Of a stretch of DNA of 64,000 nucleotides, positions 25,896-39,949 are shown piece by piece (the stretch's first letter is position 1; every line of letters begins with the position of its first letter). Below the pieces are notes generated by a model, which did not search any database, had not been told where the DNA came from, and worked only from the letters and a program-made list of their open reading frames with translations. The DNA is from Terriglobia bacterium. Lineage in GTDB: Bacteria > Acidobacteriota > Terriglobia > Terriglobales > Acidobacteriaceae. The stretch is from NCBI GenBank assembly GCA_020073525.1, contig JAIQFA010000006.1, positions 1 through 64,000 on the forward strand. The letters run 5' to 3'. Position numbers and translations under genes: made by a program.

Positions 25896-26318
25896 TCTCA
25901 TCCGGGAAAGGCAGTCATCCCTCCGCGCTTTGTTTGGCGGGAGCTTGGAAGGGCAAGCTTTTCTATGTCGCCGGAGGCTTTTGCTCCGCTGACGGATCGC
26001 GAACTGGACGATCTGGGGTTCGAACAGTAGCTCGGCGTCCAGCCCCTAAAGGGGCGTTTAATCTCGATGAATTTACGGCATCGCTAAAGCTAAAGCGATG
26101 CCCTGATACGAATCTCAGTTCCGCAAAGCCGACCTGATACGAATCCCAATTCCGCCACAGTGGCTTTGCGACCCCTCCCGTTTGCCCCCTTATTTTCCCC
26201 GCCCGCTGCTAATCCCCACTCCCTCAAAGGCTTACATTGACCCAGGGGTGCATCTTTCGATACTCTTAGAGCATCTTTTGCAATGGAAAGTGTACCCTGA
26301 GTGGGTGGGGGATACGAC
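25896..26318. other. Intergenic region with family-B repeats upstream of ispH
   Basis: About 420 bases without a supported gene. It holds the family-B repeat at 26041-26155. The AT-richer right end should carry the ispH promoter; no box was assigned with confidence. Confidence 0.5.
26041..26155. repeat. Repeat family B, reverse copy plus a truncated second copy
   Basis: agcccctaaaggggcg (26041-26056), then a ggcatcgct / agcgatgcc hairpin ending in ccctgatacgaat (to 26113). A second partial cctgatacgaatccc lies at about 26131-26147. Confidence 0.8.
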
Positions 26319-27290
26319 TTGTCTCAGACCAAGAGTTTATTGCTGTTGAAGCCGCGTGGATTCTGCGCCGGGGTGGTGCGGGCCATCGATATTGTCCGGA
26401 TTGCGCTCGAGGCCTTTGGGCGGCCTATTTATGTGCGCAAGGAAATCGTTCACAACCGCTTCGTGGTTGAGGAACTGCAGCAGAAGGGCGCGATTTTTGT
26501 CGACAGCGTCGACGAGGTTCCCGAGGGAGAACGCGTGATCTACAGCGCCCACGGAGTTTCTCCGGAAGTGCGCGAGGCCAGCAAACTGCGGAATCTGCGG
26601 GTAATCGATGCTACGTGTCCGCTGGTCACGAAGGTGCACGTGGAGGCGGTGAAGTTCGCGAAGGAGGGCTATTCGCTCATCCTGATTGGCCATCGCGATC
26701 ATGACGAAGTGATTGGCACACTCGGCGAAGCGCCGGCAGTCACTCAGGTGGTCGGGTCGCCTGCCGAGGTCGCGTCGGTCACTCTGCCCGATCCGAACCG
26801 CGTGGCCTACTTAACGCAGACGACGCTCAGCCTGGATGAGACGCGCGACATTATTGCTGCGCTGCGCAAGCGGTTCCCCAACATCAAGGGTCCGGCCGCT
26901 CAGGACATTTGCTATGCCACGGAAAACCGGCAGGTTGCCGTGAAGCACGTGGCGTCGGATGCCGACTTGCTGCTGGTGGTTGGTTCCGACAATAGTTCAA
27001 ATTCCAAGCGTCTGGTGGAAGTCGCCCGCAGTTTGGGTACCGAGGCGCATCTAATTGATGATTGCCGTAACATCCGGCCACAGTGGTTGAATGGCGTGAA
27101 GACGGTGGCTCTTACCGCAGGAGCATCGGCTCCGGAGCACCTGGTGCAGGAAGTCGTGGAGTACCTGGCTGGGCAGGGCTTTGGCGATGTACAGGAATTG
27201 GAAATCATGCCGGAAAATGTGCGTTTTGGATTGCCGCCGGAGATCGTCGCAACCATCGCCGCCGCTCCGGCCGTAGCCTTGGAATCGTAG
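26319..27290 (+). CDS. ispH: 4-hydroxy-3-methylbut-2-enyl diphosphate reductase
   Basis: Last enzyme of the MEP pathway, making IPP and DMAPP with an Fe-S cluster. The three cluster cysteines lie in KPRGFCAGVVRAI, DATCPLVTKVH and QDICYATENRQ. SAHGVSPEV and GHRDHDEVIGTLGE are also typical. The frame opens at a GTG at 26301, but the TTG at 26319 has GGGGGA upstream and gives a normal N-terminus. It starts the hopanoid cluster, with shc 12 bases downstream, so precursor supply and hopene formation appear co-transcribed. Confidence 0.94.
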   Translation: MSQTKSLLLLKPRGFCAGVVRAIDIVRIALEAFGRPIYVRKEIVHNRFVVEELQQKGAIFVDSVDEVPEGERVIYSAHGVSPEVREASKLRNLRVIDATCPLVTKVHVEAVKFAKEGYSLILIGHRDHDEVIGTLGEAPAVTQVVGSPAEVASVTLPDPNRVAYLTQTTLSLDETRDIIAALRKRFPNIKGPAAQDICYATENRQVAVKHVASDADLLLVVGSDNSSNSKRLVEVARSLGTEAHLIDDCRNIRPQWLNGVKTVALTAGASAPEHLVQEVVEYLAGQGFGDVQELEIMPENVRFGLPPEIVATIAAAPAVALES

Positions 27291-27302: not shown

Positions 27303-29270
27303 ATGGAAGAATCCTCCCCCTATAGTTCGGCCTCCGCGCCGCAGATGCGATTTGGAAAGATCGATGACCTGGGAAGCCGGGTCGCGGTGGCGGTCGACGC
27401 CGCGCGCAACTACCTTTTCTCGCAGCAGCACGAAGAGGGCTACTGGTGCGGAGAACTGGAAGCCGATACCACCCTCGAGTCCGATTACATCCTGCTCCAT
27501 ATGCTGCTGGGTACCGGCAGCCAGACACGCTTTGACAAAGCTGCTCGTTATATCCTCAAGCACCAGAACGAGGACGGTGGCTGGAGCATCTACGCCGGTG
27601 GTCCGTCCAATATCAGCGCATCGGTCAAAGCCTACTTCGGGCTGAAGCTGGCGGGTTTCACCGCCGATCATCTCGCGCTGGCACGAGCCCGCAAGAAGAT
27701 TCTCGACATGGGTGGCGTGACCGAAGTCAATACCTTCACCAAGATCTATCTCTGTTTCTTTGGGCAGTACGATTACGATGCCGTGCCCGCGGTTCCGCCG
27801 GAGATCGTGCTCTTTCCCAACTGGTTCTGGTTCAATATCTACGAAATTTCTTCGTGGTCGCGCGCCATCCTGGTGCCCCTGTCAATCTGCTACGCCAAGA
27901 AGCCTTTCAAGAAAATTTCCGACGAAATGGGAGTGGAAGAACTCTTTGTCGGCGGCCGCGACAAGTCGCGCATGCATCTGCACTGGGCCAAGAAGCGGAT
28001 TTCCTGGCGGAATTTCTTTTTGGTGCTGGATCGTATTACTCACTGGGCAGAGCGTGTGCACATCCGTCCGCTGCGGTCGATTGCGCTCAAGAAAGCGGAG
28101 AAGTGGATGCTGGAGCGCTTCGAGATGAGTGACGGATTGGCGGGAATTTTCCCCTCCATCATGAACTCCATTATCGCGCTGCGCTGCCTCGGCTATTCGG
28201 TGGACGATCCGCAGGTGATCCGTGCGCTCGACGAGTTCGAGAAGTTGGGAATTGAAGAGGGCGACACTTTCCGCATGCAGCCCTGCATGTCTCCGGTGTG
28301 GGACACGGCATACGCGTTATTTGCTCTGGGTGAGGCGGGAGTTCCGGCGACCGATCCACGGCTGGTGCAGTGTGCCGACTGGATTTTGCAGAAGCAGGTC
28401 CGCAAGCCCGGGGACTGGAAGATCAAGAATCCGAAAGGCGAGCCCGGCGGCTGGTACTTCGAATTCAACAACGAGTTCTATCCCGACGTGGACGACACGG
28501 CCATGGTCTGTCTGGCGCTGAGCCGGGTCGAACATCCGAACGGGCGCTATCAGCGTGAGTCTGTGCAGCGGGCGATTGATTGGGTGCTGTCGATGCAATG
28601 CAAGGACGGAGGCTGGGCCTCGTTCGATAAGGATAACGACCGCATGGTGTTCCAGTACGTCCCCTTTGCCGATCACAACGCCATGCTCGATCCCGCAACC
28701 GTCGACATCACGGGCCGGATTCTGGAGTGTCTTGCGACCTACGGATACGACCAGAACCATCCAGCGGTGAAGCGCGCGCTCAAGTTTATTCGCAAAGAGC
28801 AGGAGCCAGATGGAAGCTGGTTCGGACGCTGGGGCGTGAACTACATCTACGGAACGATGCAGGTGTTGCGCGGTCTGGAGGCGATAGGCGTCGACCGCAA
28901 TGACCCGATGATCCAGCAGGCGGCGGAATGGCTGCGATCGGTGCAGAATGCCGATGGCGGCTGGGGCGAGACGGTCGGATCCTACGACGACCCGAACCTG
29001 CGTGGGCAAGGCGACAGCACGGCATCGCAGACGGCGTGGGCGATCATGGGCCTGCTGGCCGTCGGAGACACGCGGAGCGAATGCGTGGCGCGCGGCATGG
29101 CGTACCTGCTGAAGACGCAAAACAAAGACGGTTCCTGGGATGAGCCTTTCTACACCGGAACCGGTTTCCCGCGCGTGTTCTATCTGATGTACCACCTGTA
29201 CCGCCAGTATTTCCCGCTGATCGCACTGACGACGTATTCGAAAGTGATGGCGGAAAAAAGTGCGAACTAG
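27303..29270 (+). CDS. shc: Squalene-hopene cyclase
   Basis: Membrane-associated cyclisation of squalene to hopene. The 655 residues match the family. The catalytic acid motif DVDDTA starts at about D395. Several QW repeats are seen (QNEDGGWS, QCKDGGWASFDKDND, QNADGGWGETVGSYDDP, QNKDGSWDEPFYTGTGFP). It lies directly behind ispH. A heptamer inverted repeat fills the gap to hpnA and could act as an attenuator or RNA stabiliser. Confidence 0.97.
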   Translation: MEESSPYSSASAPQMRFGKIDDLGSRVAVAVDAARNYLFSQQHEEGYWCGELEADTTLESDYILLHMLLGTGSQTRFDKAARYILKHQNEDGGWSIYAGGPSNISASVKAYFGLKLAGFTADHLALARARKKILDMGGVTEVNTFTKIYLCFFGQYDYDAVPAVPPEIVLFPNWFWFNIYEISSWSRAILVPLSICYAKKPFKKISDEMGVEELFVGGRDKSRMHLHWAKKRISWRNFFLVLDRITHWAERVHIRPLRSIALKKAEKWMLERFEMSDGLAGIFPSIMNSIIALRCLGYSVDDPQVIRALDEFEKLGIEEGDTFRMQPCMSPVWDTAYALFALGEAGVPATDPRLVQCADWILQKQVRKPGDWKIKNPKGEPGGWYFEFNNEFYPDVDDTAMVCLALSRVEHPNGRYQRESVQRAIDWVLSMQCKDGGWASFDKDNDRMVFQYVPFADHNAMLDPATVDITGRILECLATYGYDQNHPAVKRALKFIRKEQEPDGSWFGRWGVNYIYGTMQVLRGLEAIGVDRNDPMIQQAAEWLRSVQNADGGWGETVGSYDDPNLRGQGDSTASQTAWAIMGLLAVGDTRSECVARGMAYLLKTQNKDGSWDEPFYTGTGFPRVFYLMYHLYRQYFPLIALTTYSKVMAEKSAN

Positions 29271-29347: not shown

Positions 29348-30340
29348 TTGAAAGCTTTTGTTACCGGCGCCACCGGGTTTCTGGGCAGTCATGTTGCGCG
29401 TGTCCTGGCGGAACAGGGAGCGCAATTGCGTTTGCTGGTGCGGCCGACCAGCGATCTGCGGAACATCGACGACCTGGATGCTGATCGGGTCCCGGGCGAT
29501 CTGCGTGACGCGGCCTCGATCGAGAAGGCGCTTTCTGGTTGCGATGTTGTATTTCACGTCGCCGCCGATTACCGGCTGTGGGTGCGCGATCCGGGCGAGA
29601 TGTATCGTTCGAATGTCGAGGGCACGCGTGCCTTGCTTGAAGCGGCGCGACGACAAGGCGTACGGCGCGTGGTGTACACGTCGAGTGTCGCGACCATGGG
29701 CTTCACGTCGAATGGCAGCGGGACCGTCGCCGACGAACGGAGTCCGGTCAGCCTTGACGACATGATCGGGCACTACAAGCGTTCGAAGTTCATGGCCGAA
29801 CAGGTTGCAGTGGATGCCGCGAAATCTGGAGTCGATGTGGTGGTGGTGAATCCCACCACTCCGATCGGCGAGCGCGATATCAAGCCGACTCCCACGGGGC
29901 GCATCGTCGTGGATTTCTTGAAGCGAAAATTCCCGGCGTACGTGGAAACGGGTTTGAATCTCGTGGATGCAACGGAGTGTGCCAGAGGTCATGTGCAGGC
30001 GCTCGAGAAGGGAAAATCGGGCGAGCGCTACATTCTGGGCGGAGAAAATCTGACCCTGAAGCAGATTCTGGACCGGCTGGCCGCGATTACCGGCTTGAAG
30101 TCGCCGACAGTGAAATTGCCGTATGTGTTCGCCTTCGCGACCGGGGTCGTGGACGAGATGGTGACGGGCCGGTTGCTGGGCCGCGAACCGCGCGCCACCA
30201 TTGACGCCGTGCGCATGGGACGCAAGATGATGTTTGTGAGTTCCGCAAAAGCGGAGCGGGAACTGGGCTGGCGCACAGTTCCAGTCGACGGGGCTTTGCG
30301 CCGGTCGGTAGACTGGTTTCGTAACAACGGATATGTCTAG
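29348..30340 (+). CDS. hpnA: Hopanoid-associated sugar epimerase HpnA
   Basis: Extended short-chain dehydrogenase/epimerase of hopanoid clusters. The 330 residues have the NAD(P) motif VTGATGFLGSHV, the HVAADYRLWV segment typical of HpnA, the catalytic-region YTSSVATMG and YKRSK. The start is a TTG at 29348, immediately after the heptamer repeat and without a Shine-Dalgarno sequence. The 3' end overlaps hpnG by 8 bases. The exact reaction of HpnA is not settled in the literature. Confidence 0.92.
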   Translation: MKAFVTGATGFLGSHVARVLAEQGAQLRLLVRPTSDLRNIDDLDADRVPGDLRDAASIEKALSGCDVVFHVAADYRLWVRDPGEMYRSNVEGTRALLEAARRQGVRRVVYTSSVATMGFTSNGSGTVADERSPVSLDDMIGHYKRSKFMAEQVAVDAAKSGVDVVVVNPTTPIGERDIKPTPTGRIVVDFLKRKFPAYVETGLNLVDATECARGHVQALEKGKSGERYILGGENLTLKQILDRLAAITGLKSPTVKLPYVFAFATGVVDEMVTGRLLGREPRATIDAVRMGRKMMFVSSAKAERELGWRTVPVDGALRRSVDWFRNNGYV

Positions 30341-31133
30341 GATCGCCATCGTAGCCGCCATGGAGCGGGAAGTGAGGCCGCTGATCCGAAGCTGGAAGGT
30401 CAGAATTCTGGAACACGGCGGGCGGCGATATCGTCTTTTTGAAAACAAAGATGCGGCCCTGATCTGTGGTGGAATTGGAGCCGAAGCGGCGCGCCGCGCA
30501 ACCGAGGCGGTAATTCAGGAAGTTAAGCCCATGCGCGTGCTCTCGGTCGGTTTTGCCGGAGCGCTGGATGATTCGTTGCAGGTCGGGCATGTTCTCGAGC
30601 CCAGCACGGTGATCAATGCGGCCGACGGCGTTCGAACCGAAGTCGGCTCAGGCGGAGGGGTACTGGTGAGTTCGGCGACCCTGGCTGATACGGATCAGAA
30701 GATTCGTTTGAGTAAGGCCTACGGTGCGCATGCGGTGGACATGGAAGCCGCCGCCGTTGCGCAAGGGGCGGAGGCGCGGGGAATCGATTTCGGAGCTCTG
30801 AAAGCAATCTCCGATGCAGCGGATTTCTGCCTGCCGGCGATGGATCGCTTCGTCGCGGGCGACGGCAACTTCGATTCCGTCAGATTTGCTTGTCATGTAG
30901 CGCTGCGCCCGTGGCTGTGGGGCACTACCATTGTGCTTGCGCGAAACAGTTCCAAGGCAAGCCTTGCGCTTTGTGATGCGCTAGCGAGTTACCTCCGACG
31001 TCCTGGCGTCGGCCGTCAAACCTCGCATGATGAGTCTTTGGTTGCGGCATTGAATCCAACAAGGGCTGCCTCAGAGTCCCCCAGCGGACATACTTGCGCG
31101 GGCATTGAGGCTCATACTGAAGGGAAGCGATAA
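30333..31133 (+). CDS. hpnG: Hopanoid-associated phosphorylase HpnG
   Basis: Purine-nucleoside-phosphorylase-fold enzyme that releases adenine from adenosylhopane to give (phospho)ribosylhopane. The N-terminus AIVAAMEREVRPL, the CGGIGAEAARRATE loop and VDMEAAAVAQGAEARGI (the MEAAA of the superfamily) are present. About 45 extra residues at the C-terminus (after ALASYLRR) are low in structure and unusual. It overlaps hpnA and is followed 18 bases later by the dehydrogenase pair. The adenosylhopane-forming partner hpnH is not in the window. Confidence 0.87.
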   Translation: MSRIAIVAAMEREVRPLIRSWKVRILEHGGRRYRLFENKDAALICGGIGAEAARRATEAVIQEVKPMRVLSVGFAGALDDSLQVGHVLEPSTVINAADGVRTEVGSGGGVLVSSATLADTDQKIRLSKAYGAHAVDMEAAAVAQGAEARGIDFGALKAISDAADFCLPAMDRFVAGDGNFDSVRFACHVALRPWLWGTTIVLARNSSKASLALCDALASYLRRPGVGRQTSHDESLVAALNPTRAASESPSGHTCAGIEAHTEGKR

Positions 31134-31151
31134 GACTAAGAAAAATCTACT

Positions 31152-32315
31152 ATGGCGATTGCTCGACCATCCACGTTGGCTGTTGAGAAGACCGTTGCAA
31201 GCGAAAGGCGCGAGATTCCTTTCCGGATTCCGTCGACGATGCAGGCCGCAGTGTATCGCGGCGTAAACGATGTGCGCTTGGAAGAGGTGCCAGTGCCTGA
31301 GATTGGACCGGGCGAGATTCTCGTTCGTGTTCACACCTGTGGCATCTGCGGGACTGATCTGAAGAAGATCGCGACCGGTTCCCACTCCGCTCCGCGTATT
31401 TTTGGGCACGAAACCTAGGGCGTCGTCGCGAAAATTGGGGAAGGCATTCGCAAATTCGCCGTGGGCGATCGCGTGGTGGCGTTTCATCACATCCCGTGCG
31501 GAGAGTGTTATTTCTGCCGCCACAAGACCTTCGCGCAGTGTGCCACCTACAAGAAAGTGGGATGCACCGCAGGGTTTGAGCCCTCGGGTGGAGGATTTGC
31601 CGAATACGTCCGGGTGATGGATTGGATCGTAGAGAAGGGAACGGTGCGCATTCCGGAGGGTGTCAGCTTCGAACAGGCATGTTTTGTCGAGCCGGTGAAT
31701 ACCTGCATCAAAGGAATTGAGACCCTTCGTTTGCAGGCCGGAGAGACCGTCCTGGTGATCGGGCAGGGTCCTATCGGCTTGATTCTGGCGACTTTGGCGC
31801 AGCGGGCGGGGGTTCGGGTGATTACTTCCGATTTGCATCCGGCGAGGCTTACAATAGCAAATAGCTTCGGCCTCAAACTGACTGTTGATGCTTCCAAGGC
31901 TGACGCAGGACAAACTGTGCGCGGAATGACCGAAGGGCGCGGGGCTGACGCTGTCATCTTGGCAGTCGGCGGGACCGGCCTGATTCGGCCCGCCATAGAT
32001 GCTACCCGTCCGGGTGGTCGCGTGTTGCTGTTTGCTCAGACGGTGCGAGGCGAGGTGACCATCGACCCAGCCGCAGTGTGCGTGGACGAAAAAGCATTGC
32101 TCGGATCCTATAGTGCATCAGTGGACTTGCAGGAGGAATCAGTGCGGTTCGTCATGAACCGTGAAATGGATCTGGAACGGCTTATCAGCCACCGTTTCCC
32201 GCTACAAAGCGGTGTGGAAGCGCTGAATCTGGCGGCCCATCCTCAACCGGACTCGATGAAGATCGTCATCCAGCCGGGCAGCGCCGGGGCCCCCAGCACG
32301 CGGGTATTGGCGTGA
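31152..32315 (+). pseudogene. Zinc-dependent MDR dehydrogenase interrupted by one in-frame TAG
   Basis: A 387-codon frame encoding a complete medium-chain dehydrogenase except for a TAG at 31416-31418. Before it are the catalytic zinc motif TCGICGTDLKK and FGHET. After it, in the same frame, come GVVAKIGEGIRKFAVGDRVV, the structural zinc motif CGECYFCRHKTFAQC, the Rossmann motif GQGPIGLILATLAQ and a normal C-terminus. No frameshift or second lesion is seen. TAG serves as an ordinary stop elsewhere in the window (accA, korB, ispH, shc, hpnA), so recoding is unlikely. It is a recent pseudogene or a sequencing/assembly error. It lies between hpnG and a paralogous dehydrogenase. Confidence 0.85.
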
Positions 32316-32346
32316 TGGGGTGGAGGGCGTGGGAAGGACATCAATT

Positions 32347-33396
32347 GTGACTGGCAAGATGACGGCCGCCGTTCTTTACGGCAAAGAAGACATCAAAATT
32401 GAAAAGGTGCCCATCCCCCGCTTGGATGAAGGTGAAGTTCTGGTGAAGGTCCACGTGGCCTTGACTTGCGGCACGGATTTGAAGGTGTATCAGCGGGGCT
32501 ATCACGCCCGCATGATTGTGCCGCCTGCGCTGTTCGGGCATGAACTGGCCGGCACGGTCGAACAGGTCGGAGAGGGCGTGCGCGGCTTCAAGAAGGGCAT
32601 GCGCGTGGTCGCGCTCAACTCGGCCCCCTGCGGCATGTGCTTCTATTGCTCCAAGCACCAGTTGAATCTCTGCGAAGACCTGCTCTTCAACAATGGCGCC
32701 TACGCCGAGTACATTCGGATCCCGCGGCGCATCGTGGAAACCAACATGCTCGTCGTGCCTTCGAATGTGAGTTTCGAGGATGCCGCGATGACCGAGCCGC
32801 TGGCCTGCGTTTTGCGCGGGTTGCATGAAACTGGAGTCGAGATCGGCGACACCGTGGCGGTAATTGGCGGCGGCCCCATCGGCCTGATGTTCGTGCAAGT
32901 GGCCAAAGCCATCGGTTGCAATGTGATCGCGGTGGTGAAACGCGACTCACAAGTCGCATTGGCGCGTAAGAAGGGTGCGCACGAAGTCGTGCAGATTACC
33001 AAGGTAAAGGATCCGATCGAAGCGGTGCGCGAACTGAGTCCGGAGAAACGCGGCGCCGACGTGGCCATCGAGGCCGTGGGTCGTCCGGAAGCCTGGGAGT
33101 GGGCCGTGCAGATGGTTCGCAAGGGCGGCACCGTCAATTTCTTCGGCGGGTGCGCTTCGGGAACCAAGGTGCAGCTCGACACCAACCGCTTGCACTACTC
33201 GGAAATCACTTTGAAGGCGACTTTCCATCACACGCCGGAGACGGTACGCCGGGCCTTCGGTCTGATTGCGGAGAAAAAAGTTCTCGGTACCGACTACATT
33301 ACCGGCGAAGCGCCGCTTTCGCGTTTGCACGACGTGCTGCGCCACATGCTGAACCGTAACGGAGATATCAAGACTGCGATTATCCCGGGTCACTAA
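32347..33396 (+). CDS. Zinc-dependent MDR dehydrogenase in the hopanoid cluster
   Basis: An intact 349-residue dehydrogenase related to the interrupted one upstream. Catalytic zinc motif LTCGTDLKVYQRGYH with GHELAG, structural zinc motif CGMCFYCSKHQLNLC, Rossmann motif GGGPIGLMFVQVAKAIG. The GTG at 32347 follows GGAAGGA and is preferred over a GTG at 32320 and an ATG at 32359. Its place directly behind hpnG and before hpnC suggests a role in hopanoid side-chain chemistry, but sorbitol- or threonine-dehydrogenase-like activity cannot be excluded from sequence. Confidence 0.87.
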   Translation: MTGKMTAAVLYGKEDIKIEKVPIPRLDEGEVLVKVHVALTCGTDLKVYQRGYHARMIVPPALFGHELAGTVEQVGEGVRGFKKGMRVVALNSAPCGMCFYCSKHQLNLCEDLLFNNGAYAEYIRIPRRIVETNMLVVPSNVSFEDAAMTEPLACVLRGLHETGVEIGDTVAVIGGGPIGLMFVQVAKAIGCNVIAVVKRDSQVALARKKGAHEVVQITKVKDPIEAVRELSPEKRGADVAIEAVGRPEAWEWAVQMVRKGGTVNFFGGCASGTKVQLDTNRLHYSEITLKATFHHTPETVRRAFGLIAEKKVLGTDYITGEAPLSRLHDVLRHMLNRNGDIKTAIIPGH

Positions 33397-33470: not shown

Positions 33471-33474
33471 TTTG

Positions 33475-34413
33475 ATGACGATTGCGACCAGCCATTCCTC
33501 GACTGTGCCGCTCGCCTCCGGTTGGAGTGCGCTGCCGCCGGAGTACGCGATCCCCGACGAGGCGCCCACAGAAGCAGAAGCGCGCGAATACTGCCGCCGT
33601 CTGGCGCGCTCCCATTACGAAAATTTTTCCGTCGCGTCGTGGTTTCTTCCCGAGCGTCTGCGCCAGCACTTTTTCAACGTCTATGCCTACTGCCGCATCT
33701 CGGACGACCTGGGCGATGAAGTAGGCGACACCGCTGCATCGCTGCAATTACTCGATCAATGGGAAACCGAACTGAACGCCTGCTACGACGGTCATCCGCG
33801 GCATCCTGTGTTTGTCGCCCTCGCCGAAACCGTGCGCAAATTTGAAATTCCAAAGCACGAATTCGCCGATTTGCTGACCGCCTTCCGGCAGGACCAAAGC
33901 GTCAGCCGTTACGAAATCTTCAACGATCTGCTCGGCTACTGTCGCTATTCGGCGAATCCGGTCGGCCACCTCGTGTTGTACCTCTGCGGATATCGCGACT
34001 CGGATCGTCAACTGCTTTCCGACTACACCTGTACCGCGCTGCAGCTCGCGAATTTCTGGCAGGACGTGAGCGCGGACTTTGCTAAAGGACGAATTTATCT
34101 TCCTCTCGAAGACCTGCGCCGTTTCGGCGTGAGTGAGGAAACAATCCGCGAGGGCGAAAACACCTTGGCGTTCTGCAGGATGCTCAAGTTTGAAGTGGAG
34201 CGTGCGCGAGAGTGGTTTACGCAGGGCCTGCCGCTGATTGCGAAAGTCGACCGCAAACTGGCCACCGACATCGAACTCTTCAGCCGGGGCGGCCAGGAAA
34301 TTCTGAACGCCATCGAATGCCAGAACTGCGCCGTGCTGGGTAGGCGTCCGGCAATCTCCAAGACCCGGAAGCTGGCGCTGGTCGCTCGTGCCGCGCTAGG
34401 GAAGCTGCGATGA
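33475..34413 (+). CDS. hpnC: Squalene-forming enzyme HpnC (hydroxysqualene synthase)
   Basis: Squalene/phytoene-synthase fold, converting presqualene diphosphate to hydroxysqualene in the HpnCDE route. The 312 residues carry the two Asp-rich regions YCRISDDLGDE and NFWQDVSADFAKGRIYLP. An ATG at 33475 is preferred over the adjacent TTG at 33472. The stop overlaps the hpnD start (ATGA). Confidence 0.92.
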   Translation: MTIATSHSSTVPLASGWSALPPEYAIPDEAPTEAEAREYCRRLARSHYENFSVASWFLPERLRQHFFNVYAYCRISDDLGDEVGDTAASLQLLDQWETELNACYDGHPRHPVFVALAETVRKFEIPKHEFADLLTAFRQDQSVSRYEIFNDLLGYCRYSANPVGHLVLYLCGYRDSDRQLLSDYTCTALQLANFWQDVSADFAKGRIYLPLEDLRRFGVSEETIREGENTLAFCRMLKFEVERAREWFTQGLPLIAKVDRKLATDIELFSRGGQEILNAIECQNCAVLGRRPAISKTRKLALVARAALGKLR

Positions 34414-35342
34414 GCACTGCCGTGGGAAACGCGCCCGCACAGTTTGCGCCGACTGCTTCACAGCTTGAAATGGCGTATTCCGTCTGCCGGAGTATCGCCC
34501 GTTCTGCAGCCAAGAATTTCTACTACGGTTTTCTGGTTCTGCCGCGACGGAAACGCAACGCGTTGAGCGCCGTCTACGCCTTCATGCGGCGTTGTGACGA
34601 TATTACCGACGACAACACGCTCAGTCCCTACGATCGTCACGTCAAACTGGCAGAGTGGCTGGATAGAGTCCACCGCGCCTTGGCGGCACAGCCGACCGAT
34701 GACCCAGTGCTGCTGGCCCTGACCGACGCGCAGCGCAGCTACCAGATTCCAATCGGACTTCTCGACCAGCTTGCCTACGGTACGGCGGCGGATCTCGATT
34801 ACGGTTCTGAGCCTGCGGCCGGCGCACCATTGCTCGTGCGTTACCAAACTTTCGAAGAGTTGCGACAATATTGTTACGGCGTGGCCTCTGTGGTCGGCCT
34901 GGTATGCATCAGGATTTTTGGCTATCGCGACCCTGCCGCTGAGCCGCTTGCGGAACGCTGCGGCCTGGCTTTTCAGCTGACAAACATAATTCGCGATGTC
35001 AAGGAAGATGCTGCCATGGGCCGGGTTTATTTTCCCCAAGAGGATCTGGCACAGTTCAGTCTTTCCACCGCCGACCTGGCGGCGCCCGATCCAGCCCGCC
35101 TCCGCGCGCTGCTGGCGATGGAAGCGGATCGCGCTCGCGAGTGCTACAGCGCCGGAGAAGAGTTGATCCCGCTGGTGAATGAAGACAGTCAGCCTGCCCT
35201 GTGGGTTCTCATTACCATCTATCGACGCCTGCTGGAAAAGATTGCCGCGAACCAGTACGACGTATTCCGTGAGCGCGTCCGATTGACAGTTCCCGAAAAG
35301 CTCACTGTCTTGGGGAAGGGAATCCTCAAGCGCCTGTTGTGA
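34410..35342 (+). CDS. hpnD: Presqualene diphosphate synthase HpnD
   Basis: Condenses two farnesyl diphosphates to presqualene diphosphate. The 310 residues show YAFMRRCDDITDD and NIIRDVKEDAAMGRVYFP, the paired Asp motifs of the family. It is translationally coupled to hpnC upstream and hpnE downstream by stop/start overlaps. Confidence 0.93.
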   Translation: MSTAVGNAPAQFAPTASQLEMAYSVCRSIARSAAKNFYYGFLVLPRRKRNALSAVYAFMRRCDDITDDNTLSPYDRHVKLAEWLDRVHRALAAQPTDDPVLLALTDAQRSYQIPIGLLDQLAYGTAADLDYGSEPAAGAPLLVRYQTFEELRQYCYGVASVVGLVCIRIFGYRDPAAEPLAERCGLAFQLTNIIRDVKEDAAMGRVYFPQEDLAQFSLSTADLAAPDPARLRALLAMEADRARECYSAGEELIPLVNEDSQPALWVLITIYRRLLEKIAANQYDVFRERVRLTVPEKLTVLGKGILKRLL

Positions 35343-36748
35343 TGCCCGCCTCGACACATCAACCCACTGTCGCGATAGCCGGAGGCGGGTTGGCCGGCCT
35401 CGCTGCTGGATGCGCTCTCGCCGAAGCCGGATTTCGCGTGACCCTGTTCGAACGCCGCCCGTATCTCGGCGGCCGCGCCTCTTCGTACCAGCATCCCGGC
35501 ACCGGAGAGATTGTCGACAATTGCCAACACGTGTTGCTCGGCTGCTGCACCAACCTGCTCGATTTCTATCGGCGCGCAGGAGTCGAGAACAAGATTCGCT
35601 GGTATGAGAAGTTGACCTTCCTCGAGCCCGGAGGCCGCGCCTCCGTCATTGCGCCCTCAGCCCTCCCCGCTCCGCTACACACCGCGCCGGCGTTTCTGCG
35701 GGCCGACTGTTTGAGTTTTCGCGACAAACTGGCCATCAGCCGCGCCATGGCGGTGCTCGCTCCTGCGGCCCCGGAGGATCGTGGCGAGTCATTCCTCACC
35801 TGGCTCAAGCGCCACGGACAAACCGAGCAAGCTATTGAACGTTTCTGGAAGACGATTCTGGTGAGCGCCTTGAATGAAGATCTCGATCAGGTATCCGTCC
35901 CTTATGCGGCGCAAGTGGTGCGTGAATCATTTCTTAAGTCAGCCGCTGCCGGGCGCATGGGAATTCCAACCGTGCCGCTTACCGAACTCTATGGCACGGC
36001 TGGAGCCTACATTCGCGCGCGTGGAGGAGATGTCCAGTTTCGTGCCGGCGTGGAGGCGTTTCGAACCGAAGCCTCCGAGGTTAGTGTGACGGCTAACGGA
36101 CGGGAACAGAAATTCGACTATCTGCTATTAGCAGTTCCTTTCGATGTGCTGGGACGCATATTGCCCGATACACCGTCCGCTGCGCCTCTGGCCGCGGCAC
36201 TCGGCCAGTTCACCACGTCTCCGATCACGGGCATCCATCTCTGGTTCGATCGCCAGATCAGCAACCTCGATCACGCCGTTCTCCTCGACCGAACCATCCA
36301 GTGGATGTTTCACAAATCGCGACTGATCGAAGCACGCGGGACTGGCAACGGTGGCGGCAGCTACGTCGAACTGGTCGTAAGCTGCTCACGGAGCCTGGTG
36401 GAAAAATCAAAGACAGAAATCGTCGATATGGCGGTGAAAGAAGCACAAGAGTTCTTTCCCGGCGCACGCGACGCGAAGCTGTTGAAATCGACCGTGATCA
36501 AGGAAGTGAATGCGACCTATTCACCGCGCCCGGGAATTGACCAGCAGCGGCCCAAGCCAGAGACGGTCTGGCCGCGCGTATTTCTCGCGGGCGATTGGAC
36601 CGCAACTGGCTGGCCCGCCACCATGGAGGGCGCGGTGCGCAGCGGCTATCTTGCGGCGGAAGCACTGGCGCGTTTCGCGGGCGAAAAAAGCGCTAGCTTC
36701 CTTGTTGCCGATCTGCCCCCGAGTGGCTTGATGAAATTGTTTGGATGA
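35342..36748 (+). CDS. hpnE: Hydroxysqualene dehydroxylase HpnE
   Basis: FAD-dependent amine-oxidase/desaturase-like enzyme that completes squalene formation. The N-terminal dinucleotide motif is AIAGGGLAGLAAGCALAEAG with ERRPYLGGRASS. The C-terminal FAD contact is RVFLAGDWTATGWPATMEGA. Length is 468 residues. The ATG at 35342 overlaps the hpnD stop (TGATG). Last gene of the shc-hpnE run. Confidence 0.93.
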   Translation: MPASTHQPTVAIAGGGLAGLAAGCALAEAGFRVTLFERRPYLGGRASSYQHPGTGEIVDNCQHVLLGCCTNLLDFYRRAGVENKIRWYEKLTFLEPGGRASVIAPSALPAPLHTAPAFLRADCLSFRDKLAISRAMAVLAPAAPEDRGESFLTWLKRHGQTEQAIERFWKTILVSALNEDLDQVSVPYAAQVVRESFLKSAAAGRMGIPTVPLTELYGTAGAYIRARGGDVQFRAGVEAFRTEASEVSVTANGREQKFDYLLLAVPFDVLGRILPDTPSAAPLAAALGQFTTSPITGIHLWFDRQISNLDHAVLLDRTIQWMFHKSRLIEARGTGNGGGSYVELVVSCSRSLVEKSKTEIVDMAVKEAQEFFPGARDAKLLKSTVIKEVNATYSPRPGIDQQRPKPETVWPRVFLAGDWTATGWPATMEGAVRSGYLAAEALARFAGEKSASFLVADLPPSGLMKLFG

Positions 36749-38476: not shown

Positions 38477-39949
38477 CTAGGCCTTGGCCGGTTCCGGGGC
38501 AGGCGCTTCTTCCTTCCGGTTTTCCTTGACCCATTTGTGGCGCTGCGAGCGCAGTTTCAGGAAGGTCCGCGCTTCTTTGTACAAACGCTTGCGTTCGGAA
38601 TTGTCGAAGAACGCTTTCCTCAGAATGCGGTACGCAGCCTTGGGACGGAAATAATACTGATCGTAGAAGTGATGGACCGACTCGAGGAGTTCCGCGGCGG
38701 GCAGGTCGGGATACTCGATCTGCACCATCTGGTGTCCGCCGTCGTCCACCATCTTCGTGTCGCTGGTCATGAAGCCATTCTTGATCGCGAATTCGTGCAG
38801 TTCCGTACCCGGGTAAGCATGCGCCACCGACACCTGAATCGTCTCCACGTCGAGTTCCTTGGCGAAGGCGATCGTGTTCTTGATGGTCTCGCGCGTTTCT
38901 CCCGGCAAGCCGAGAATGAAATCTCCGTGGACCACCAGCCCCAGCTTGTGGCAATCCTTCGTGAACTGACGGGCACGCTCGATGGTCGCGCCTTTCTTGA
39001 TGTTCTTCAGAATCTGCTGGTCGCCTGATTCGTAGCCCACGATCAGGAGCCGGCATCCCGCTTCCTTCATCGCCTTGAGCGTTTCGAAGTCGGTGGTGAC
39101 GCGCGAGGTACACGACCAGGTCAAGCCCAGCGGCTTCAGCTTGGCGCAAAGTTCGATGGTGCGGGCTTTCTGCAGATTGAAGGTGTCGTCGTCGAAGAAA
39201 AATTCCTTCACGTAGGGCCAGTAGTCCTTGGCCTTGGCCATTTCACGCGCTACGTCATCGGTGGAGCGCTTGCGCCAAGGATGTCCGCTGAGCGTCTGGG
39301 GCCACAGGCAGAACGTGCATTGCGCCGGGCATCCGCGCGTCGTGTACAGCGATACAAAGGGATTGAGCAGGAATGGCACGTTATAGCGGCGGACGTCCAA
39401 GTCGCGCCGGTAAACATCGGTCACGTGCGGTAGGGCGTCGAGGTCCTGAATGGTCGGCCGGTCGGGGTTGTGTAGCACCCCACCATTTTTTCGGTACGAA
39501 ATGCCCAGAATATCTTCAATCGGCTTGCCCTGGGCGTATTCGACGATGGAGTAGTCGAACTCCTTGCGGCAGGCTACGTCGATCACTTTCGCTTCCATCA
39601 AAGACTTTTCAGGAAGCACGCTGACGTGCGGTCCGACGAACGCGATCTTGATGTGTGGATTGCTATCTTTAATGGCTTCTGCGATGCGAACGTCGCCGGC
39701 AAACCCGGGAGTACTCGTGAACAGCACCAGCAGTTCGTAGTCCTTGCAGGTACGGATGGTTTCTTCCGCCGTGATGTGGTGAGGCGGGGCGTCGAGCAGC
39801 CGAGCGCCCTCTAGCATTCCGGTTGGGTAGGCAAGCCACACCGGGTACCAGTACGATTCGATTTCACGGGTGGCGGGCCAGCGCGACCCGGCGCCCCCAT
39901 CGAAATTCTCAAAAGAAGGCGGATTCAGAAACAGTGTTTTTAATGGCAT
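38477..39949 (-). CDS. hpnJ: Hopanoid-associated B12-binding radical SAM protein HpnJ
   Basis: Radical SAM enzyme proposed to form the cyclitol ether head group of composite hopanoids. The 490 residues open with MPLKTLFLNPPSFENFDGG, typical of HpnJ. A cobalamin-binding-like fold follows (IKIAFVGPHVSVLPE), then the cluster motif CPAQCTFCLW and a SAM barrel (GYESGDQQILKNIKKGA, GDFILGLPGETRETI). The C-terminal tail is Glu/Pro/Ala rich. It sits opposite to and downstream of the main hopanoid operon. A TAAAAT at 39969-39964 on its strand is a possible -10 box. Confidence 0.88.
   Translation of the reverse strand: MPLKTLFLNPPSFENFDGGAGSRWPATREIESYWYPVWLAYPTGMLEGARLLDAPPHHITAEETIRTCKDYELLVLFTSTPGFAGDVRIAEAIKDSNPHIKIAFVGPHVSVLPEKSLMEAKVIDVACRKEFDYSIVEYAQGKPIEDILGISYRKNGGVLHNPDRPTIQDLDALPHVTDVYRRDLDVRRYNVPFLLNPFVSLYTTRGCPAQCTFCLWPQTLSGHPWRKRSTDDVAREMAKAKDYWPYVKEFFFDDDTFNLQKARTIELCAKLKPLGLTWSCTSRVTTDFETLKAMKEAGCRLLIVGYESGDQQILKNIKKGATIERARQFTKDCHKLGLVVHGDFILGLPGETRETIKNTIAFAKELDVETIQVSVAHAYPGTELHEFAIKNGFMTSDTKMVDDGGHQMVQIEYPDLPAAELLESVHHFYDQYYFRPKAAYRILRKAFFDNSERKRLYKEARTFLKLRSQRHKWVKENRKEEAPAPEPAKA

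Follow-up and report, generated by a model that had tools for sequence, protein, structure and literature searches.

Bacteriohopanetetrol (BHT) gives rise to hopanoids, a class of bacterial membrane lipids, that serve as geological biomarkers, and the enzyme responsible for its formation had not been established as of 2025, according to the available part of PMC12583986. In the available passages of Sinninghe Damste et al. 2017 (PMC5462960), the enzyme that converts ribosylhopane to BHT is called still unknown, with HpnA suggested for the step. These passages also report a gene termed ug2, a Zn-binding alcohol dehydrogenase that precedes hpnC and is tied to hpnC/D/E; they give no function for it and describe Chloracidobacterium thermophilum as producing BHT and its cyclitol ether without having ug2. 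Among the titles and abstract openings that we found, none held a published assignment of the ribosylhopane-to-BHT enzyme; subscription journals were mostly not covered, so one may have been missed. Here we describe two genes for zinc-dependent medium-chain dehydrogenases/reductases (MDR), designated MDR1 and MDR2, that lie in a hopanoid operon of a Terriglobia bacterium from the family Acidobacteriaceae. The window, which is the whole stretch of DNA analyzed, comprises 64,000 nucleotides of contig JAIQFA010000006.1 (assembly GCA_020073525.1). We tentatively propose that MDR1 and MDR2 are polyol-type dehydrogenases that evolved together as a pair, were taken into the hopanoid operon and would act on the hopanoid side chain or head group.

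In the window, hpnA, an hpnG-like gene, the two zinc MDR genes, hpnC, hpnD and hpnE are all read in the same direction, and 18 bases (31134-31151) separate the hpnG-like gene from MDR1, as an earlier note on this DNA had described. The note's picture of a purely hopanoid operon with hpnG and two MDR genes holds for the gene order and has to be qualified for two of the genes, since MDR1 carries an in-frame TAG codon and the hpnG-like gene falls below the curated cut-off of its family model. Restriction of the arrangement to this genome would have told against the note, but this is not what we see: hopanoid operons of many Acidobacteriota share both MDR genes as a conserved component. We searched 297 Acidobacteriota genomes with MDR2 (E ≤ 1e-60) and with the open part of MDR1 downstream of the stop (E ≤ 1e-45), and obtained matches in 59 and 47 genomes, respectively; in the family of the window, MDR2 was present in 30 of the 31 genomes and MDR1 in 29. 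In a named collection of genomes, a scan gave 584 confirmed loci, the best 80 of which (57-96% identity) were used for comparison of gene order, and these were all titled Acidobacteriota save for one metagenome-assembled genome (MAG) titled 'Acidimicrobiia'. To be counted, a locus had to extend at least 3 kb in the 5' direction (71 loci) or at least 1.5 kb in the 3' direction (72 loci). MDR1 stood directly 5' of MDR2 in 66/71 loci, hpnC/D/E were found 3' of MDR2 in 69/72, and hpnG or hpnA was located upstream on the same strand in 62/71 (hpnG in 56 and hpnA in 58, with an hpnG label that admits weak BLAST matches). In many relatives, too, the hpnG-like gene is flanked by hpnA and MDR1, and in Bryobacterales loci MDR2 is likewise 5' of hpnC (e.g., L165, L173-L176). 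Exceptions include four loci in which the shc/ispH block is on the opposite strand, together with hpnA or hpnG where either was seen (L118-L120, L122), five with no MDR1 nearby (L141-L143, L145, L146) and three with no hpnC/D/E (L126, L127, L138). Recurring in dozens of loci, the order hpnG-MDR1-MDR2-hpnC/D/E exceeds chance. The 'Acidimicrobiia' MAG (L185, VFZE01000054.1) has the order ispH-shc-hpnH-hpnA-hpnG-MDR1-MDR2-hpnC-hpnD; its operon is of the acidobacterial type and its MDR sequences fall among Bryobacterales-type tree rows, so that either a mislabeled contig or a transfer would account for it.

The two dehydrogenases differ in the company that they keep. All 29 genomes of the window's family with an hpnG match have MDR1 within 1 kb of it, whereas for MDR2 a distance of up to 3 kb from hpnG is seen in no more than 10 of the 29. 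This identifies MDR1 as the hpnG-linked gene, and not MDR2, the 32347-33396 gene that the note had singled out for deletion or expression. In the split loci read (L056, L057, L080, L105, L141-L143, L145, L146), MDR2 remains beside hpnC/D/E. In this family the operon thus has two sides, hpnA-hpnG with MDR1 and hpnC-D-E with MDR2. No MDR-like open reading frame (ORF) that could serve as a stand-in was seen within 4 kb in the available part of 17 loci from outside the family recovered with the HpnG hidden Markov model (HMM), in some of which the match has no other hpn genes next to it; the search did not extend to other oxidoreductases.

Zinc-dependent MDR enzymes are expected to carry catalytic ligands in the pattern C..HE..E together with a four-cysteine lobe that binds structural zinc. 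Both proteins have the two domains of this class, GroES-like ADH_N and ADH_zinc_N, over cut-off, MDR2 with the scores in Table 1 and the open part of MDR1 with 67.6 bits for PF00107 and 28.3 bits for PF08240. The zinc ligands are intact. Catalytic C41, H65, E66 and E150 and structural C95, C98, C101 and C109 of MDR2 are invariant in an alignment of 24 sequences (A2), with C41 just nearly invariant in a larger alignment of 28 sequences (A3), and C53, H76, E77, E170, C106, C109, C112 and C120 are invariant in 20 relatives of MDR1. An AlphaFold2 model of MDR2, with a predicted local distance difference test (pLDDT) value of 92.3, has the MDR fold, and the closest folds retrieved by Foldseek are zinc and polyol dehydrogenases (5vm2, 4ejm and 1e3j, at template modeling scores of 0.87-0.89). 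Of the solved structures to which a function is given, those of polyol, ketose and threonine enzymes come nearest, the NADP(H)-dependent ketose reductase 1e3j ranking first. MDR2 looks like an NADP(H) enzyme of the polyol/ketose-reductase type.

In a Rossmann fold, as a rule, an acidic residue after the second beta strand favors NAD, and the lack of an acid combined with basic neighbors favors NADP. We compared this position in operon-linked sequences (92 of MDR1, 88 of them distinct, and 104 of MDR2, 100 of them distinct, some contigs being present in two collections) and in stand-alone sequences (13 and 12, respectively), labels that depend on how far a contig extends: L202 ends inside MDR2, and L126, labeled unlinked, is near a contig edge. 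MDR1 has D or E in 92/92 linked and 13/13 stand-alone sequences. MDR2 has no acid at position 197 in 103/104 linked and 11/12 stand-alone sequences, and most have K or R next to it. MDR1 is thus predicted to be NAD-dependent and MDR2 NADP-dependent, and an NAD-type enzyme encoded beside an NADP-type enzyme would be well suited to oxidation and subsequent reduction. In such a scheme, MDR1 would oxidize an alcohol to a ketone and MDR2 would reduce a carbonyl; the substrate would be a polyhydroxylated group of a hopanoid, either the C35 side chain once HpnG has released it or a head group on this chain that resembles a sugar. Oxidation by MDR1 and re-reduction by MDR2 would then amount to isomerization, epimerization or trimming of the polyol. 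A more specific version, and an improbable one in our estimate, is that the two enzymes in succession epimerize or isomerize the hopanoid polyol by redox chemistry and that Terriglobia make a stereoisomer or a rearranged form of BHT. If this were true, the isomer would not be told from ordinary BHT by degradation to hopanols, the method of PMC5462960, and hopanoid biosynthesis would have a new step taken from an older sugar-alcohol pathway.

The phylogenetic profile ties the two genes to hopanoid production and also sets a limit to their role. A pair was counted where both thresholds given above were passed, which left out G161 (an MDR1-like protein of 36% identity and no MDR2) as well as G273 and G132 (MDR2 without MDR1). 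HpnH, encoded by the key gene of the hopanoid side chain, was found in 76 and SHC in 75 of the 297 genomes. MDR1 and MDR2 are inherited as a pair. The close pair is present in 46 genomes, 42 of which have HpnH, against 76/297 overall (Fisher P 2e-25, a value inflated by relatedness). The pair is, however, neither confined to genomes with HpnH nor present in all of them. Four genomes have it without HpnH, namely G113, G211 and G282 (84-93% complete, with the pair beside hpnA and ispH) and G221 (100% complete, with the pair standing alone). Conversely, 34 of the 76 HpnH-positive genomes are pairless. No MDR2 match at E ≤ 1e-60 was obtained in 25 of these 34; the other nine do have one, close in G273 and distant (37-48% identity) in eight, in which it is possible that a distant MDR2 homolog fills the role. 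The distribution of a ribosylhopane reductase, present wherever HpnH is and absent elsewhere, is therefore not seen within the phylum. Because the pair is absent from 34/76 HpnH genomes and has relatives in genomes that lack HpnH, it is unlikely to supply, in general, the missing activity that completes hopanoid side chains. The suggestion in the earlier note that the two MDR genes encode the missing side-chain reductase thus gains from the conservation of the operon and from the NADP(H) polyol/ketose-type appearance of MDR2, and loses its generality through these pairless genomes and through the HpnH-less genomes of another class considered below. Two observations were set aside. The joint lack of hpnA, hpnG, MDR1, MDR2 and hpnC matches, at the thresholds used, in G007 (L079), which has shc and hpnH, concerns one block next to a contig end, for which loss and assembly gap are inseparable, and is not independent support; an apparent fused MDR1-MDR2 protein in G221 is an artefact of ORF choice, as the two matches overlap by 16 bases in different frames.

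The history of the pair was approached with a quick tree of 126 rows, which took some of the linked loci and from which one MDR-like ORF of L061 was dropped. Operon-linked MDR2 sequences form one group, with a Shimodaira-Hasegawa-like approximate likelihood ratio test (SH-aLRT) value of 98, and stand-alone MDR2 sequences of families f39 and f81 form an adjacent group (98); more distant stand-alone pairs fall outside both. The simplest reading of this tree is one recruitment into the hopanoid operon. The pair would then predate its link to hopanoids and would have entered the operon in the ancestor of the operon-bearing Acidobacteriota. No shared neighbor gene was seen beside the stand-alone pairs, whose neighbors are mostly unannotated; the five scanned were two synthases of the ketosynthase/FabA type, a response regulator, a penicillin amidase and one without a match. 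In genus g175 (L204, L206), the stand-alone pairs are near a large ketosynthase/FabA-type synthase of the fatty-acid or polyketide type.

Several results weigh against a coupled pair acting on hopanoids, and some of them speak for the rival view that the two enzymes still perform their original function, on a soluble polyol or sugar that has nothing to do with hopanoids, with their place in the operon due to co-regulation or hitch-hiking. In a second set, the class of G221 (193 genomes), a relative of MDR1 (E ≤ 1e-60) was found in 15 genomes and HpnH (E ≤ 1e-70) in 5, and 12 of the 15 MDR1-positive genomes, 8 of them at least 92% complete, have no HpnH at this threshold. In 13 of the 15, the pair has no hpn gene within about 4.5 kb in the available stretch. 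The active-site loops are nearly identical in linked and stand-alone forms: 88 of 349 MDR2 columns are common at ≥90% in both (104 linked, 12 stand-alone), clean differences between the clades are limited to four columns (107, 115, 129 and 348), and the consensus of loop 38-66 agrees at 26/29 positions. Near-equal zinc-site and substrate loops in HpnH-less genomes would fit one shared non-hopanoid substrate better, and the comparison as a whole favors one kind of substrate for linked and stand-alone pairs. The groups of the MDR1 tree fail to show a single origin of the linked forms. Within the hopanoid operons, MDR1 and MDR2 are apart in 19 of the 46 genomes that hold both, so they need not be made together, and the eight loci of family f28 read (L060, L063, L065, L066, L083-L086) have hpnA followed by the pair with no hpnG between. 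That no common neighbor was seen beside stand-alone pairs is a further point that the rival view can claim. Against it, linked MDR2 forms a single tree group that stays with hpn genes down to 57% identity among the best 80 of 584 loci, a linkage that mere hitch-hiking would hardly hold. Position 115 of MDR2, in loop 108-121, splits cleanly between N, I or L in linked sequences and W in 12/12 stand-alone sequences, and is the clearest candidate for a substrate shift. MDR1 compares similarly over its length (82 of 351 columns common between 92 linked and 13 stand-alone sequences, with three C-terminal columns differing), and its loop 36-62 agrees less, at 16/27 positions. MDR1 and HpnH co-occur beyond chance even among the genomes of the G221 class, HpnH being present in 3/15 genomes with MDR1 vs 2/178 without (Fisher P 0.0035, relatedness ignored): two genomes of family f46 (G344, G345) have HpnH and the pair beside hpnA/shc or hpnG, and G066 has HpnH with an unlinked pair. 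On balance, a soluble substrate is somewhat unlikely, and we place it behind the redox-coupled pair on a hopanoid polyol, which remains our best reading.

Next in order, and unlikely as we judge it, is that MDR2 by itself is a lineage-specific ribosylhopane reductase, which in Terriglobia and their relatives would use NADPH to reduce the open-chain aldehyde to BHT, other hopanoid producers employing another enzyme, perhaps a distant MDR2-like one. The NADP-type signature, the ketose reductase as nearest named structure, the place in the operon and the nine pairless HpnH genomes with an MDR2 match all agree with this, and the step is still without an assigned enzyme in the available parts of PMC12583986 and PMC5462960. 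The same proposal is hard to reconcile with the distance of MDR2 from hpnG in most genomes of the family and its stay with hpnC/D/E in split loci, with the 25 HpnH-positive genomes lacking an MDR2 match at E ≤ 1e-60, with relatives of nearly the same pocket in HpnH-less genomes and with the 17 hpnG neighborhoods outside the family in which no MDR-like ORF was seen within 4 kb; it also leaves MDR1 unexplained. The attachment of MDR2 to hpnC/D/E could instead mean that the pair serves the squalene branch, e.g., by redox chemistry on hydroxysqualene, a secondary alcohol, and G221 would suit this, as it has the pair, an HpnC match over cut-off and a weaker second one but no HpnH, no SHC and no HpnA over cut-off. 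This is very unlikely, however, given that polyol, ketose and threonine enzymes are the closest relatives that bear a name, that MDR1 stays with hpnG and that G132 has an MDR2 relative with no HpnC match at E ≤ 1e-40.

The reading frame of MDR1 is broken in this assembly by the TAG codon after 88 codons, and the ORF list of the window holds just the downstream part of the gene. Among 74 sequences with an MDR1 match that were checked, no other comparable internal stop was found; L125 (8977-9989) has MDR1 broken in frame and L176 (8884-9531) gave a short, partial match. The same check flagged none of 81 MDR2 sequences. The ratio of nonsynonymous to synonymous substitutions (dN/dS) between the MDR1 of the window and five relatives is 0.05-0.09, as compared with about 0.08 between the relatives, and that of MDR2 is 0.03-0.07, among the lowest of the genes compared. 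These values indicate that both genes are under purifying selection. A long-dead MDR1 pseudogene is ruled out by a substitution pattern that resembles that of intact copies, which implies that the stop either arose recently or is an error of the assembly; in this particular genome the pair may have been disabled, or the stop may not exist in the organism.

The features of the window are collected in Table 1. The cut-off of TIGR03468, missed by the hpnG-like gene, was exceeded in 0/59 acidobacterial genomes given to the HpnG HMM scan, so that the model fits Acidobacteriota poorly and the identification of this gene leans partly on its position. In f28 genomes, HpnG HMM matches elsewhere are weak (at most 72 bits). 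The start codon of MDR2 is GTG, with an alternative upstream GTG possible at 32320. The hpnH gene of this genome is on a different contig, outside the operon, and the genome has a second squalene-hopene cyclase gene (G000:C152:6076-7965, 646 bits); two such genes are also present in G281 and G241 of the same family. Beyond hpnJ, the window has ORFs for TolC-like, tetratricopeptide repeat (TPR) and HlyD-like proteins, and a block of ORFs of about 490, 440-450, 320-330 and 410 amino acids, like the hpnJ region of the window, recurs 3' of hpnE in several relatives.

Table 1. Hopanoid genes and the two MDR genes of the window, with the matches on which each assignment is based (SDR, short-chain dehydrogenase/reductase)
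Feature	Coordinates	Strand	Basis and remarks
ispH, 4-hydroxy-3-methylbut-2-enyl diphosphate reductase	26301..27290	+	NF002189 454 bits (over cut-off), PF02401; opens the hopanoid run
shc/hpnF, squalene-hopene cyclase	27303..29270	+	TIGR01507 800 bits, cut-off 431
hpnA, SDR 'hopanoid-associated sugar epimerase'	29348..30340	+	TIGR03466 501 bits, cut-off 368
hpnG-like nucleoside phosphorylase/nucleosidase, divergent	30333..31133	+	TIGR03468 96.5 bits, cut-off 187.1; PF01048 89 bits
MDR1, zinc MDR dehydrogenase, predicted NAD(H)	31152..32315	+	translation; PF00107/PF08240 on open part; intact relatives
in-frame TAG in MDR1	31416..31418	+	
MDR2, zinc MDR dehydrogenase, predicted NADP(H)	32347..33396	+	PF00107 95.9 bits, PF08240 86.2 bits
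hpnC	33472..34413	+	TIGR03464 342 bits, cut-off 250
hpnD	34410..35342	+	TIGR03465 237 bits, below cut-off 279; position
hpnE	35339..36748	+	TIGR03467 486 bits, cut-off 283
hpnJ, B12-binding radical SAM protein	38477..39949	-	TIGR03471 781 bits, cut-off 578; outside operon, opposite strand

Neither enzyme is a member of the characterized families that it matches best. The best NCBIfam match of MDR2 is L-threonine 3-dehydrogenase, Tdh (TIGR00692), at 172.7 bits and far under the cut-off of 458.35; that of the open part of MDR1 is scyllo-inosose 3-dehydrogenase, IolM (NF041097), at 107 bits, a family to which MDR2 scores 157.9 bits against a cut-off of 450. The ketose reductase and sorbitol dehydrogenase structures 1e3j and 1pl6 share the MDR fold with MDR2 and are of the polyol type, at 27-29% identity to its model, and 1e3j is titled NADP(H)-dependent, as predicted for MDR2. 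The closest described gene is ug2 of PMC5462960, which in the available passages agrees with MDR2 in phylum, in its position before hpnC, in a length of about 350 amino acids and in its annotation as a Zn-binding alcohol dehydrogenase. The two genes are very probably the same, so that MDR2 has already been noticed in print, and MDR1, which occupies the place of ug1, the gene after hpnG, is probably ug1 by position. The passages of PMC5462960 on ug1 and ug2 describe no pair, no cofactor split and no stand-alone relatives, unlike the results obtained here. With these, an unknown Zn alcohol dehydrogenase before hpnC becomes a hypothesis of two enzymes with opposite cofactor use, two conserved genes, both unbroken in relatives, are named as candidates, and the genomes that have the same kind of pair but no HpnH provide a natural control.

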